The notes under the pieces are model-generated. The model made no database searches, was not told where the DNA came from, and saw only the letters and a program-made list of their open reading frames with translations. A stretch of 39,073 nucleotides of DNA from Caldisphaera sp. (GTDB lineage: Archaea; Thermoproteota; Thermoprotei_A; Sulfolobales; Acidilobaceae), in NCBI RefSeq assembly GCF_023256325.1, contig NZ_JAGDXI010000025.1:1-39073 (forward strand). The letters run 5' to 3'. Made by a program: the position numbers and the translations under genes. Of the stretch, positions 13,687-19,260 are shown in pieces (the first letter of the stretch is position 1; each line of letters starts with the position of its first letter).

Positions 13687-14367
13687 TTGATAATTGTCTA
13701 TGGAAATCAAGTAATATATCTAAATGTAAATGCTATATTATATATAGTAAGTGGCATTGTTGCCTTATCAGTTAGCCTAGTTTCATTTAAATATAATAAA
13801 ATAATTAAGGAAAATGTATTAAATTATATTAGTTTAGGATTTGCCTTATTAGGTTTAGGACTTATTATACAAGGTTCATTAATGATATTATTATCTTTTA
13901 ATATAGCAAGAATATCAGAAGACTTAAGAGCAACTTATATTTCTTCTCTAATATATTTATTTTTACAATTAATAGCATATACTATAATTACTATAGGATA
14001 TACTAGGGAAGCATATTGGAGCAATGCAGAACCATTGCTCATTACAATAATTTTAACAAAGAAGAGAGAATATTTTTTATTAGGCGCATACGTATTTGAT
14101 GCAGTTCAAATAATATTAATATTTTTATTAGGACTTATAGTATTTTCAGGCTATTTAATTCATATGAAAAATAAAAATACTTTCTCATTGCTCGTTTTAA
14201 TAGCCTTCTCATTAATGCTAATTTCCCATATAGTTTATTTGCTGTCATCTCTATCATTTTCAGTAAATTACTATTTTATAGCAAACATAATACAATTTTT
14301 GGGTTTCCTTTCGTTATTAATATTTTTAATAAGGAGTGGTCATATTGGTAGAACAAAAGAAAAATAG
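13687..14367 (+). CDS. Six-helix membrane protein of unknown function
   Basis: A 226-residue protein with hydrophobic helices at about 12-34, 47-70, 86-104, 129-157, 165-187 and 194-215, and a basic tail (GRTKEK). I do not recognise a family. The TTG start has a strong AGGAGA site six bases before it. The end overlaps the start of a small winged-helix protein by 23 bases, so the pair is probably co-translated. A membrane protein coupled to a DNA-binding protein suggests a sensor or an anchor for the regulator, which is inference. It lies 58 bases after gltX but has TATA-like sequence of its own near 13660-13672. Confidence 0.8.
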   Translation: MIIVYGNQVIYLNVNAILYIVSGIVALSVSLVSFKYNKIIKENVLNYISLGFALLGLGLIIQGSLMILLSFNIARISEDLRATYISSLIYLFLQLIAYTIITIGYTREAYWSNAEPLLITIILTKKREYFLLGAYVFDAVQIILIFLLGLIVFSGYLIHMKNKNTFSLLVLIAFSLMLISHIVYLLSSLSFSVNYYFIANIIQFLGFLSLLIFLIRSGHIGRTKEK

Positions 14368-14629
14368 ATCAAGAGTAAAGATATACTTAGACATATTGGA
14401 AACCATAGAAAAAGAAGATAAAGCGAGATTAACAAGGATTATGTATAACGCGAATATTCCCTATGATAGATTATTAAAATATATAGATGAATTAAAACAA
14501 AAAGAAATAATAAATGAGATAAATGATGGAGACAACAGATATTATATCTTAACAAACAAAGGTAAAGAGTTTGTAAAAGAACTCAAAAAGATTGATTCGT
14601 TTCTAAGGGGATTTGGTCTAAGCTTATAG
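14345..14629 (+). CDS. Small winged-helix DNA-binding regulator
   Basis: A 94-residue protein with the layout of an archaeal winged-helix regulator (HTH_45/PadR-like): helix 1 (RVKIYLDILETIEKE), helices 2-3 with a recognition helix (YDRLLKYIDELKQKEII), and a beta wing with the signature NRYYILTNKGKEFVKEL. I set the start at the TTG at 14345 because AGGAGTGGT at 14332-14340 sits just before it; the GTG at 14336 lies inside that site. Overlap with the membrane protein gene shows coupling. A repeated, partly palindromic sequence starts at its stop codon, directly ahead of the agl3 promoter, so it may control itself or the next operon. Confidence 0.82.
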   Translation: MVEQKKNRSRVKIYLDILETIEKEDKARLTRIMYNANIPYDRLLKYIDELKQKEIINEINDGDNRYYILTNKGKEFVKELKKIDSFLRGFGLSL

Positions 14630-14654
14630 ACAGTTTGTCTATACTGTCTGTACT
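14628..14654. promoter_or_regulatory. Operator-like 9-bp-periodic repeat ahead of the agl3 promoter
   Basis: AGACAGT (14628-14634) and ACTGTCT (14643-14649) form a perfect inverted repeat with an eight-base spacer. GTCTATACT (14637-14645) is followed immediately by GTCTGTACT (14646-14654), a tandem nine-base repeat with one mismatch. The AGAC/GTCT cores recur every nine bases. The element ends seven bases before the TATA box at 14661, a classic place for a regulator to block or aid TBP/TFB. A winged-helix gene ends on its first bases, making its product the first candidate to bind. A role as terminator hairpin is the alternative. Confidence 0.5.
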
Positions 14655-14660
14655 TGCTAG

Positions 14661-14670
14661 TATATATTTA
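14661..14670 (+). promoter_or_regulatory. Probable TATA box of the agl3 operon
   Basis: TATATATTTA is centred about 27 nt before position 14692, giving a short leader that contains the GGGGGAT ribosome site and the ATG at 14702. Confidence 0.5.
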
Positions 14671-14701: not shown

Positions 14702-15979
14702 ATGAAAGGACCAATTATAATATTTGGCGCCGATGGTTATATAGGTTGGCCATTATCAATACATTTAGGAGTCAAATATGACATACCAATAATAATGGTT
14801 GACAATTTTTCGACAAGAGCATTAGTTAAATCAGTAAAATCTGATTCATTAACACCGATAAAGTCTATGTCAGAAAGACTAATAGCTTATAAAGAAACCT
14901 TTGGAAAAGACAATCTAATATTTGAACCAATTGATGCAAGAGACCCTGAGCAAGTTGATCATTTAATTTCAAAATATAAACCTGAGGCTGTTGTACATCT
15001 CGCACAACAAAGGAGTGCTCCTTTTAGTATGATTGACCAAGAACATGTGCTTTATACAGAAATTAACAATGTTATTTCGAACATAAATATAATGTTTTCA
15101 TTAATAAGGCACTCTCCAGGAGCTCATTTGCTTAAAATGGGCTCTATGGGAGAATATGGAACACCTAATATAGAAATCACGGAAGGAGATATAGAAATAG
15201 AATATAAAAATAGGAAAACAAAAGTTATGTTTCCTAGGTTTGGACAAAGCTACTACCATCTTACAAAAATTTTCGATACGTATAATTTGCTTTTAACAAA
15301 TAAACTTCATGGAATCAAGGCAACTGATGTTATGCAAGGAGTAGTATATGGAACTAAAATTGACGAAATAGTTAATGAATCATTAGAAACAAGATTTGAT
15401 TTTGATTCCAATTGGGGAACCGTTATAAACAAATATGTAGTCCAAGCTGTAATTTTAAATGAACTGTTAATTTATGGAAAAGGGAAACAAACAAGAGGAT
15501 TCTTATCATTATATGATAGTATTAATGCCTTAACTCTATTATTAGAGAATCCACCTAAAGAAGGAGAATATAGAGTTGTTAATCAGCTAGATGAGATCTA
15601 TAATACATTAGAGCTCGCTAACAAAGTATTAGAGATAGCAAACGAATTTGGAATTAAACCAAATGTAAAGCACATAGATAATCCTAGAGTAGAGGCAGAA
15701 GAACATTATTATAGCGTAGAGCATAAAATCCTGCCGTCCCTTGGATTTTCAAGGAAAAAAGATATTAAAGACGTAATTAGAGAAATATTTGAAACAGTAA
15801 TACAATACAAACACAGAGCTATGATTCTAAAAGAACTCATATATCCAACGGTAAAGTGGAGAAACTTAAAACACATGAGATCAGATTTATTCCCGATGCC
15901 AGAAGAATATATGAGAGTATTGAGCAAAAATGAAATTATGAAATACTTTGGTCCAGTTATTGAAGAAAGGATAGGGTGA
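14702..15979 (+). CDS. agl3: UDP-sulfoquinovose synthase (Agl3/SQD1 family)
   Basis: A 425-residue short-chain dehydrogenase/epimerase that combines UDP-glucose with sulfite to give UDP-sulfoquinovose, the sulfosugar donor used in Sulfolobus N-glycans. Visible features: the NAD-binding GADGYIG (9-15), MGSMGEYGTPNI near 146-156, which closely follows the SQD1 active-site segment, catalytic Tyr185 and Lys189 in YHLTK, and downstream the family blocks QGVVYG, GKGKQTRGFLSLYD and NPRVEAEEHYY. The start is the ATG at 14702, 16 codons inside the longest frame, because GGGGGAT lies just before it. It is the first gene of an operon with a glycosyltransferase and two transporters, fitting surface glycan synthesis. 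Confidence 0.95.
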   Translation: MKGPIIIFGADGYIGWPLSIHLGVKYDIPIIMVDNFSTRALVKSVKSDSLTPIKSMSERLIAYKETFGKDNLIFEPIDARDPEQVDHLISKYKPEAVVHLAQQRSAPFSMIDQEHVLYTEINNVISNINIMFSLIRHSPGAHLLKMGSMGEYGTPNIEITEGDIEIEYKNRKTKVMFPRFGQSYYHLTKIFDTYNLLLTNKLHGIKATDVMQGVVYGTKIDEIVNESLETRFDFDSNWGTVINKYVVQAVILNELLIYGKGKQTRGFLSLYDSINALTLLLENPPKEGEYRVVNQLDEIYNTLELANKVLEIANEFGIKPNVKHIDNPRVEAEEHYYSVEHKILPSLGFSRKKDIKDVIREIFETVIQYKHRAMILKELIYPTVKWRNLKHMRSDLFPMPEEYMRVLSKNEIMKYFGPVIEERIG

Positions 15980-15985
15980 AAATTA

Positions 15986-17038
15986 ATGAAAGTTATGTTA
16001 GTTTCTGAGATCGATGGTAAAACAAAAAAATTAAGAAGAGGGTCATATTTAAGATATAAATATCCTCCAAAAGGTGTTCAATATACTATATTTAACGATG
16101 TTATCCCTTTATTTAAGAATTCATCAAATTACGAATTTAATAAAGATAATGTGATATCAACTCTTTCCAGATTAATATTAAAGGGATTATCACAACCAAT
16201 TCCTAAGGATGAAAAAATTATACACTCATTCTTTTGGAATTTTTATCTATATTCAAGACCATGGATACATGAAAATGATGAAAGTCCTAGCCAATTCTTA
16301 GATCAATACTATGGTGGAAAAGGATTTACTTATAATATTGCACTAGATTTTCTAGTTTATTATCTTAACTCTTCTCCTTGCAGAGCAATAATAACATGGT
16401 CTGATTGGGCTAGAAAAGGTTTTATAAAAGACGGTGTTGATTCATCAAAAGTTGTTTTAATTCCTCCTCCAATGCCGATCAAAGCAAGTAACAAAATTGA
16501 GCACAAAGGAATCAATATATTATTTATAGGCAGAGATTTTATTAGAAAAGGAGGAGATATAGTATTAAAAGTTTTTATTAAATTATCAAAAGAGTTTAAT
16601 GATTTGAACTTATTTTATGTTGGCTCAATACCAAATAATATAAAGAAATTAATCAGCAGTTATAAAAATATATATCATTTCAGTAACCCTGATGATAACG
16701 TTCTTTATAAAAAAATAATACCTGCATCAGATATTACATTTTTACCTACTAGATACGATGCTTATGCATTAACGATCCTAGAATCTATGTCCTACGGTGT
16801 TCCAGTAGTTTCGTCAGATATTAATTCTATAAGAGAATCCGTAATTCATGGATACAATGGATTTGTGGGCAAAAATGAATATGATTATGAAAAATATCTG
16901 TCGATATTAATTTCGGACGAGTATGTTAGGAAATCGTTTTCTGAAAACAGCATTTCACTAATTAAAGAAAGGCACGATCCAGAAACAGTTGGTATTGAAC
17001 TTACAAAAGTTTATGAAAATGTTTTATCAGGGTTATAA
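15986..17038 (+). CDS. GT4-family glycosyltransferase
   Basis: A 350-residue GT-B-fold glycosyltransferase. The C-terminal donor-binding domain is clear: NILFIGRDFIRKGGDIVL (177-194), LPTRYDAYALTILESMSYG and VPVVSSDINSIRESV (253-287). The usual E-x7-E signature reads D258-x7-E266, a conservative change at the first position. No membrane helix is present, so it acts at the cytoplasmic face. The start codon lies six bases after the agl3 stop, with GGGTGA as ribosome site. Next to agl3, transfer of sulfoquinovose or a neighbouring sugar to a lipid-linked glycan is a reasonable guess; the acceptor is unknown. Confidence 0.88.
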   Translation: MKVMLVSEIDGKTKKLRRGSYLRYKYPPKGVQYTIFNDVIPLFKNSSNYEFNKDNVISTLSRLILKGLSQPIPKDEKIIHSFFWNFYLYSRPWIHENDESPSQFLDQYYGGKGFTYNIALDFLVYYLNSSPCRAIITWSDWARKGFIKDGVDSSKVVLIPPPMPIKASNKIEHKGINILFIGRDFIRKGGDIVLKVFIKLSKEFNDLNLFYVGSIPNNIKKLISSYKNIYHFSNPDDNVLYKKIIPASDITFLPTRYDAYALTILESMSYGVPVVSSDINSIRESVIHGYNGFVGKNEYDYEKYLSILISDEYVRKSFSENSISLIKERHDPETVGIELTKVYENVLSGL

Positions 17039-17042
17039 TTTT

Positions 17043-18149
17043 ATGAATAGAACCTTAAGTAATAGGGTTCTATTTGTATCTACATCGATAGTTAGGTTTT
17101 CTTCTATTATAGCCCAATCAGTTTTGCCTTTATATGCGTATTCACTTAATATAACTCCTTTTTATATTTCCATAATAATTGCAATTTTATGGGTTTTTAA
17201 TGGTATTGGTTCGCTATTAATTAATGTTTCAAAAAAAGTTAATAACTTCATAGTAATGAGTTTTTTAATTACTCTAATGGGATTTATTTTAATAATTTTT
17301 TCAAAAAACTTCTTTTACTTAATTATTTCAGTAAGTCTTGTAGGATTAGGATTAGGCTCTATATCTATTCTATTGGCGCCTTCAATGCATATCGATAATA
17401 AAGGATTCGAAGGCATAGGCCTATACTCTTTTGCTTTGTCTTTAGGTTTAATACTTGGAACATTATTTTCATCTATTATACTTTCATACCTCTCATTTTT
17501 CTATATATTTATTTTCACAGCTATCTTATTGATTATTCCAATAAGCTTAGCTTTAAAATACAAGTTTAATCGTCATGATTTCAAGTTAATATTAAAATTT
17601 AACATTATTTTTTCAATCATGAGGAATAAAAAATTTTCCAAATATTTTATTTTAAATTTTATCTATTCTTTTACGTTACCATTAATAATATCATATTGGG
17701 GAATTTATGAAGAAAATTCAGTTAAATTAAAATCAAATATTGTTATGCTCTCTCTATTTTTATTATTCTTAACCTCTTCCATAATAAGGTTCAAATCAAT
17801 AAAATCTAGCGAAAAAAATCTTGTGAGACAAGAAACTGTAGCAATTTTAGTTCTTCCAATTTCATTTATTCTTTTGAACATTCATAATATATATATTAAT
17901 ATACTTGCATTACTCCTATTTGCCATTCCGCATTCAATTTTATATCCAACTTTTCTTTATAATGCTTATAAATCGTTAAACAAGAATAACATAATTGCTG
18001 GTAATTTATTATTTTCTGCTTCTTCTGGAATTGCCGAGTTTTTATCCCCTATATTCGCACTAGGTATAATAAATATGTTTACTATAAAAAGTCTGTTTTT
18101 GTTTGCATTACCAATATCCTTTTTAATGTTGATATTTTATTTTAAATGA
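17043..18149 (+). CDS. MFS transporter-like membrane protein
   Basis: A 368-residue protein with about 12 hydrophobic helices arranged as two sets of six, as in the major facilitator superfamily. The loop after helix 2 and the segment ISVSLVGLGLGSISILLAPS resemble MFS helices 2-4, but the sequence is divergent and rich in Ile, Phe and Lys. The first good start is the ATG at 17043, four bases after the glycosyltransferase stop; the longer frame would overlap that gene. Its place in the agl3 operon suggests export or import of a sugar-related compound, which is inference. Substrate unknown. Confidence 0.78.
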   Translation: MNRTLSNRVLFVSTSIVRFSSIIAQSVLPLYAYSLNITPFYISIIIAILWVFNGIGSLLINVSKKVNNFIVMSFLITLMGFILIIFSKNFFYLIISVSLVGLGLGSISILLAPSMHIDNKGFEGIGLYSFALSLGLILGTLFSSIILSYLSFFYIFIFTAILLIIPISLALKYKFNRHDFKLILKFNIIFSIMRNKKFSKYFILNFIYSFTLPLIISYWGIYEENSVKLKSNIVMLSLFLLFLTSSIIRFKSIKSSEKNLVRQETVAILVLPISFILLNIHNIYINILALLLFAIPHSILYPTFLYNAYKSLNKNNIIAGNLLFSASSGIAEFLSPIFALGIINMFTIKSLFLFALPISFLMLIFYFK

Positions 18150-18165: not shown

Positions 18166-19260
18166 TTGAGAAAAAGTAGTATGCTAATCATAGGAATCAT
18201 AGTAATGTCATTCAATTCTATATATCAATATTCATGGAATGCCTTTGCACCCCTATTATCATCAGGATTTAATGCTAGCTTAAGTCAAATATCACTAGCA
18301 TTTTCGCTATTTGCAATATTTTCAACTATTTTTCAAGTAATTGGAGGTTATATAGCAGACATTTATGGCCCAAAAATTATAGGTATTTTATCATCAATAT
18401 TATCATCAATTGGTTTCTTAGGTACCTATACTAGCAAAAATCTACTTTCGTTTTATGCTTTCTGGTCAATAGGAAGCGCTGGTGAAGGAATCCTATATAT
18501 GATTGCATCTAATTTAGCTGTAAAATGGTATTATGAAAAAAGAGGATTTGCTACAGGTCTAGTTTCATTTGGATTTGGTTTAGGAGCAACTATTGCAAAT
18601 CCCTTCATTATTGAATCTAAATCATTTAGAGAACCTTCTTTAATTATAGGAATTATAGAGTTAATATTATTACCAATACTTCTTTACTTTTCAGATTATC
18701 CTAAAAAAGGGATTTCTGGTATAAGACCAACTAAAATTATAGTAACAAGAAAATGGTGGTTAATTTATTTTTCATATGTTTTTTCGGTAGTCCCACTACT
18801 ATCTATGTCTAGCGCCCTTTCATTTGTATCTCATCAATCTGAAATAAAAATATTGGCTATTTTAATAAGCACATTTGCTTTAATGAGTGGCTTAGGTAGA
18901 CCAATAATAGGATTCGTATCAGACAAATTAGGTAGATTTAAAACACTGTTTATTTCAATTTGTTTGGTTATTATTGGAAATATTTTGTTGATAATAAATC
19001 AAATATTCTTATCTGCCATAATTATAGGTTTATTCGGAGGAGCTCTGATACCATTATATTTCTCTTTAGTCGGAGATTTATTCGGAACAAAATATTCAAC
19101 TGCAAATAATGGGATTTTATATACCGGAAAAGCCATAGCAGGTATTCTTGGAGGGGAAGTCTTTTCCATAATTTTAGGAAAGGGAGTATTGTTGAGTGGA
19201 ATATATTTATTAATATCATCAATATTAAGTATAGCATTATTATTAACTAGTTCACATTAG
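18166..19260 (+). CDS. MFS transporter, oxalate/formate antiporter (OFA)-like
   Basis: A 364-residue, 12-helix major facilitator. The N-terminal NSIYQYSWNAF, then GGYIADIYGPK (loop 2-3 motif) and FATGLVSFGFGLGATI, match organic-anion transporters of the OFA group better than sugar permeases. The second half has GRPIIGFVSDKLGR, the repeat of the loop motif. The TTG start follows GGAGAT at five to six bases. It is the last gene of the agl3 operon, 16 bases after the other MFS gene. An organic or sulfonated anion as substrate would fit both family and context, but this is not shown. Confidence 0.88.
   Translation: MRKSSMLIIGIIVMSFNSIYQYSWNAFAPLLSSGFNASLSQISLAFSLFAIFSTIFQVIGGYIADIYGPKIIGILSSILSSIGFLGTYTSKNLLSFYAFWSIGSAGEGILYMIASNLAVKWYYEKRGFATGLVSFGFGLGATIANPFIIESKSFREPSLIIGIIELILLPILLYFSDYPKKGISGIRPTKIIVTRKWWLIYFSYVFSVVPLLSMSSALSFVSHQSEIKILAILISTFALMSGLGRPIIGFVSDKLGRFKTLFISICLVIIGNILLIINQIFLSAIIIGLFGGALIPLYFSLVGDLFGTKYSTANNGILYTGKAIAGILGGEVFSIILGKGVLLSGIYLLISSILSIALLLTSSH

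Follow-up and report, generated by a model that had tools for sequence, protein, structure and literature searches.

Sso10a proteins have been discussed mostly as chromatin proteins, and archaeal regulators whose DNA site and membrane input are both known are, to our knowledge, few. The Sso10a proteins that have been studied are reported to bend, bridge or coat DNA and to form antiparallel coiled-coil dimers (PMC4941522). Transmembrane transcription regulators (TTRs), archaeal ones included, are one-component systems and by definition a single polypeptide (PMC10269533). Acquisition of a UDP-sulfoquinovose synthase was noted in a study of soil Thaumarchaeota, the accessible portion of which does not mention a regulator (PMC10640624).

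Here we analyzed a stretch of 39,073 nucleotides (the window) from a Caldisphaera genome of 1.5 Mb, in which a membrane protein gene and an Sso10a-like winged-helix gene precede an operon headed by an SQD1-like synthase gene (Table 1). The palindrome between the gene pair and the operon is, as judged from sequence comparison, probably bound by a so far undescribed gene switch with a link to the membrane, and our search of the open-access literature found no description of the two-gene arrangement or of the operator.

Table 1. Features of the gene pair, the operator candidate and the target operon in the window
Feature	Coordinates	Strand	Description	Evidence
Six-helix membrane protein gene	13687..14367	+	226 aa, TTG start; proposed sensor or tether	AlphaFold2 model
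Sso10a-like winged-helix gene	14336..14629	+	97 aa, GTG start; proposed regulator	Pfam HTH_45, E 9e-20
Extended element	14625..14653	+	TATAGAC-N5-GTCTATA, ACT-N3-TGTAC	Five-genome pattern spans 14626-14653
Core operator candidate	14627..14641	.	15-bp palindrome TAGACAGTTTGTCTA, TAGAC-N5-GTCTA	Conservation in five genus genomes
Third half-site	14650-14653	+	GTAC	GTNC at equal offset in Nitrososphaeria
TATA-like box of synthase promoter	14661..14668	+	TATATATT	Position 35 counted from palindrome start
SQD1-like UDP-sulfoquinovose synthase gene	14702..15979	+	425 aa, ATG at 14702; target gene	PDB 1qrr SQD1, E 1e-91
GT4-type glycosyltransferase gene	15986..17038	+	Probable operon member	Pfam Glycos_transf_1, E 8e-23
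MFS transporter-like gene	16989..18149	+	Probable operon member	Pfam MFS_1, E 3e-11

Results

A conserved palindrome upstream of the synthase gene

The original prediction had proposed a nine-base periodic operator at this position, and its reading of the letters was accurate. AGACAGT (14628-14634) and ACTGTCT (14643-14649) are exact reverse complements, GTCTATACT (14637-14645) and GTCTGTACT (14646-14654) form a tandem 9-mer repeat with one mismatch, and the element opens with TAG (14627-14629), which is both the stop codon of the winged-helix ORF and the first triplet of the 15-bp palindrome. The bare inverted repeat is unremarkable, with 145 perfect 7-bp-arm repeats (spacers 0-15) in the window compared with 114-132 in shuffled sequence. 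Because repeats of this size are frequent by chance in an AT-rich window, the observation alone is no ground for a claim, and conservation is what raises the site above chance. The AGACAGT...ACTGTCT form occurs a single time in the genome. We rejected this 7-bp palindrome as the functional unit, given that its outer arm ACTGTCT is lost in relatives and that such repeats are common by chance.

Across the genus, the pattern ATAGACN5GTCTATACTN3TGTAC was matched once per genome and with no mismatch in 5/5 genomes, always before the synthase TATA box. The form TATAGAC-N5-GTCTATA is perfect in three of these genomes (G000, G011 and G014) and has one end mismatch in the other two (G012 and G013), and the palindrome is followed 3' by ATAC, GTAC and the TATA box, in that order. 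A conserved operator-like site is therefore present as proposed, but its register differs, with a 15-bp palindrome and a third half-site in place of a nine-base array; the nine-base periodicity holds within the genus (TATACTNNNTGTAC, with 9-bp TRTAC spacing) but fails in Nitrososphaeria. Chance repeats in AT-rich DNA might be invoked, as the window is rich in perfect 7-bp-arm repeats and loose versions are found at control level, but the exact conservation of a single copy in each of five genomes, together with its reappearance in other archaeal groups, leaves this explanation hardly credible. When we searched for a regulon in the window's own genome with the loose palindrome, two-mismatch matches were at control level, and a second perfect TAGACN5GTCTA on another contig (C40) was discarded as a further site, lying inside a small ORF.

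One genus genome separates the components of the locus. In G012, the winged-helix gene and the synthase are separated by a pirin-like gene, and the element remains at the synthase, about 1.4 kb away from the winged-helix gene. The pirin-like gene of this complete genome is on the opposite strand (L046, 3417-4331).

In the sister genus, the equivalent position is occupied by TGTACTCSGAGTACA in G001 and G004 and by a version with one mismatch in G003, which fits the core TRNAC-N5-GTNYA, and the TATA box is about 13 bp nearer to the palindrome, at position 21. At the G004 locus (L053; G004:C1:650000-658000), the synthase is reduced to fragments or a short in-frame remnant and the palindrome and gene pair are kept. 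A 40%-identical synthase homolog is found elsewhere in two sister-genus genomes, including G004. In G002, the synthase is missing at the equivalent place, a palindrome of this kind is absent 3' of the winged-helix gene, and the gene pair is again kept. Further palindrome matches in sister-genus genomes were set aside, as those inspected fall mostly within coding frames. A second exact TGTACTCSGAGTACA in G003 (L103, 1501-1515; G003:C3:3334-3348) lies just after one ORF and 50-odd bases 5' of a secreted-looking ORF, which is a possible second target.

The gene pair and the target operon

The membrane protein was modeled with six helices at a pLDDT of 80.7 (AlphaFold2 with 21 homologs); it matched nothing in Pfam or NCBIfam, and a fold search of the PDB with the model returned no significant match. 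Its neighbor belongs to the NCBIfam Sso10a family (70 bits against a cut-off of 60), with Sso10a-1 and Sso10a-2 (4hw0/1r7j) as best PDB matches and a C-terminal helical segment that is plausible in alignment. The two genes overlap, as originally predicted, and the overlap measures 32 bases. Homologs of the membrane protein almost always have a winged-helix gene as partner, and the membrane-then-winged-helix order, overlapping or abutting, was seen at nearly every sampled locus of Thermoproteota and Thermoplasmatota. This is a widespread archaeal gene pair that is not specific to sulfoquinovose synthesis, one branch of which sits at the present operon.

In other genera of the window's taxonomic family, a divergent winged-helix homolog lies 3' of a multi-helix membrane ORF in 20/21 loci, although the region upstream of the membrane ORF at these loci held no clear site (p 0.07). 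The membrane ORFs concerned (L025-L045) have 4-7 helices and about 180-220 aa, precede nearly every Sso10a-like gene, and are mostly too diverged for the membrane profile.

The overlapping membrane gene, whose order is retained across Thermoproteota and Thermoplasmatota, suggests that holding or activation of the regulator takes place at the membrane. Alternatively, the winged-helix protein might bind the operator with the membrane protein uninvolved, the overlap being operon packing; the regulator has a conserved FxxGFGL-like tail at its C-terminus that may serve in docking and is present in more divergent homologs too, which would suit this explanation. We consider it quite unlikely, given the constancy of the gene order at nearly every sampled Thermoproteota and Thermoplasmatota locus and the multi-helix membrane ORF that precedes 20/21 divergent homologs in the family's other genera.

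The SQD1 match spans residues 5-389 of the synthase, and its translation contains GxxGxxG, YxxxK and GSMGEYG motifs, consistent with the SQD1 fold and the SDR motif set. Against the NCBIfam UDPsulfquin_syn equivalog, it scored 509 bits, below the cut-off of 575. The earlier description of a sulfosugar gene is corrected in that the enzyme is of the SQD1-like type and falls short of what NCBIfam requires of a UDP-sulfoquinovose synthase; the product here should be UDP-sulfoquinovose. Most pair-bearing loci have a GT4 gene after the synthase and MFS homologs in the equivalent position. In the window, the true start of the MFS transporter-like gene is probably 3' of 17038. Beyond the operon, at 18166-19260, there is another MFS gene, which is of the oxalate/formate-antiporter subfamily type and so differs in type from the one at 16989-18149.

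Synthase loci in other archaea

Our search of public genomes for the synthase returned Nitrososphaeria, Thermoplasmata and bacterial relatives. Synthase promoters adjacent to the pair carry TRNACGNNNCGTNYATAC-N5-GTNC followed by a TATA box, mostly at position 32-36; across the genus and Nitrososphaeria, a simple TATA matrix placed the box 32-36 from the palindrome start in 15/17 synthase loci. The promoter dyad is thus conserved at a near-fixed distance from TATA, which argues for direct action on the basal promoter. Among eight Nitrososphaeria-type genomes, seven have one pattern match at the synthase, and the sole extra match was rejected as a second site because it is inside a coding frame.

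The original prediction had called for comparing conservation of the repeat with the presence of the regulator, and the outcome agreed with it. A strong match within 200 bases upstream of the synthase was found at 16/16 loci with an adjacent pair and at 0/38 without one, a contrast that is partly circular, as 13 of the 16 positives had been used in training, near-copies occur among the loci and many of the 38 are bacterial. Two changes of the pair label are required on the synthase tree and can be read as one gain and one loss; the loss falls on the Thermoplasmata branch, whose synthases have neither an adjacent pair nor the element. Co-variation was observed between the arms of the palindrome (p 0.003, without correction for phylogeny).

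At four loci (L120, L132, L133 and L126), pair and synthase are divergently transcribed, with the element in between. These divergent loci bear on the idea that the inverted repeat is an RNA element or the transcription terminator of the winged-helix gene, to which the start of the repeat at the stop codon and the potential for a small hairpin lend themselves; arm co-variation alone would be equally consistent with an RNA stem. They contradict the terminator reading, which we rejected, as the element there stands between two gene starts and 3' of no gene. With the G012 element remaining beside the synthase, some 1.4 kb from the winged-helix gene, and the TATA distance nearly fixed, the RNA or terminator explanation is very improbable. 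One of the divergent loci, L126, is on a contig titled 'bacterium' and has an archaeal-type synthase, the palindrome, a TATA box and a partial membrane gene; it is probably archaeal and mislabelled.

The site at distant gene pairs without a synthase

Using the membrane-protein profile, we identified distant homologs in many Thermoproteota families, nearly all of them in membrane-then-winged-helix pairs with no synthase in the locus. We scanned these loci with a matrix for which synthase promoters were the sole training data. In the first set of distant pairs, sites were enriched upstream of the membrane gene (Fisher 2e-8 for an 18-mer and 8e-11 for a symmetric 15-mer), and the signal persisted after removal of near-duplicates (Fisher 8e-8), with 0/300 scrambled palindromic matrices performing as well (statistic 108.7 versus a maximum of 64.8). 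A looser form, TRNACGNNNCGTNYA, is common to the Nitrososphaeria synthase loci and the distant pair loci. Thermoplasmatota pairs gave a Fisher value of 2e-4, including an unlinked pair with TGTACGAATCGTACG upstream (L262-L264, of which L263 and L264 are near-copies).

The signal has clear bounds. About half of the distant pairs have no recognisable site, with 16/37 loci reaching p < 0.1 in neither flank-specific sense, and the deeper families f30 and f21 have the pair and no recognisable site. An out-of-sample class search covering 14 new pairs did not find the upstream signal (p 0.87). Regions downstream of the distant pairs were at chance level overall, and a good downstream palindrome was present at a few loci (L213, L236 and L240), in L213 just before a secreted-protein gene. 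A matrix built from the Caldisphaera sites alone gave p 0.01 on the distant loci; it was weak on single Nitrososphaeria loci because half-site letters drift between clades, and its best match was nevertheless the right site in 12/14 of them.

Many genes flanking the distant pairs look secreted, and most have no Pfam family: of ten flanking genes searched, two contained CarboxypepD_reg and NPCBM_assoc, and the other eight gave nothing above the Pfam cut-off. A secreted-looking family of about 230-247 aa, which has no Pfam match, is transcribed away from several distant pairs (L198, L199 and L209).

Overall, the site was found with the regulator pair and not without it, although the synthase contrast is partly circular and about half of the distant pairs have none. 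Because the palindrome is often found at pairs without a synthase, the site follows the regulator pair more closely than it follows the synthase. The earlier proposal that a membrane protein and a DNA-binding protein together act on a sulfoquinovose operator is borne out to the extent that the site follows the pair, in the synthase contrast (16/16 versus 0/38) and at distant pairs, but the system is not sulfoquinovose-specific. The palindrome could instead serve as operator for some other, unlinked factor in control of synthase transcription, leaving the neighboring pair a syntenic passenger: these genomes hold wHTH homologs and many other regulators, and in G012, where pair and synthase are separated, the site is in the synthase promoter and not beside the regulator gene. 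We regard this as unlikely, since distant membrane/winged-helix pairs without a synthase also have the palindrome, the Thermoplasmata synthase loci lost it together with the linked pair, and a near-single-copy site speaks against a global regulator.

Discussion

We consider it likely that the winged-helix protein encoded next to the element uses it as an operator and so controls the synthase/GT4/MFS operon, with the membrane protein as its partner. A dimer of the Sso10a-like protein would occupy the 15-bp palindrome, which lies about three helical turns 5' of TATA, and the third half-site would adjoin the promoter, whereby transcription of the SQD1-like synthase, GT4 and MFS genes would be controlled. 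The six-helix membrane protein would hold or release the regulator on a signal at the membrane or envelope. A 15-bp palindrome with co-varying arms would fit a dimeric winged-helix protein. Regulator binding, engagement of both arms by a dimer, a physical connection with the membrane protein, the signal, and whether control is positive or negative are all inferred; on the last point we lean slightly toward repression, because in the sister genus the palindrome directly adjoins the TATA region, as it does by eye at several distant loci.

A broader proposal, on which we are evenly divided, is that a widespread two-gene signalling system, comprising a six-helix sensor and an Sso10a-type regulator with the shared operator TRNACGNNNCGTNYA, controls envelope genes, and that one branch of it has passed from one archaeal group to another as a cassette that included its operator and target operon. 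An envelope-sensing role would be the simplest reading. If true, the envelope targets of the two-gene system would be sulfosugar synthesis here and secreted proteins elsewhere. Sequence comparison by itself has in this case yielded a specific candidate operator, a candidate regulator and a candidate membrane sensor, which recur from acidophilic hot-spring Thermoproteota to Nitrososphaeria (soil) and Thermoplasmata. They offer a testable entry into the ways in which archaea tune their surface glycans and envelope proteins, and the motif can be used to seek other targets.

Among described systems, the enzyme resembles SQD1 of Arabidopsis and Agl3 of Sulfolobus acidocaldarius, being SQD1-like over its full length with SDR motifs as in PMC4388408, although the S. 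acidocaldarius agl3 neighborhood (agl1, agl2 and agl4; PMC4388408) has a different gene set from this operon. The winged-helix protein also shows distant sequence similarity (E about 1e-4 to 1e-6) to AspA (PDB 4rs8 and 5k1y), which is a winged-helix partition regulator by its structure title only, whereas here we found a biosynthetic operon and saw no partition genes.

The proposed system would, like the TTRs, couple a membrane signal directly to a DNA-binding domain. Here and at other loci, however, the two parts are encoded by separate overlapping ORFs, and the membrane part has six helices. The pair therefore falls outside the one-polypeptide definition of a TTR, and a like function is possible without such membership. 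The closest match in sequence is Sso10a of Sulfolobus (PDB 1r7j and 4hw0; NF053610; HTH_45), which shares a size of about 10 kDa and a winged helix followed by a C-terminal helix. An operator and a membrane partner gene are absent from the available part of its description (PMC4941522), whereas the present locus has a palindromic site and an overlapping membrane gene, and the conserved single-copy site suggests that this regulator may act sequence-specifically, unlike the Sso10a proteins studied so far.
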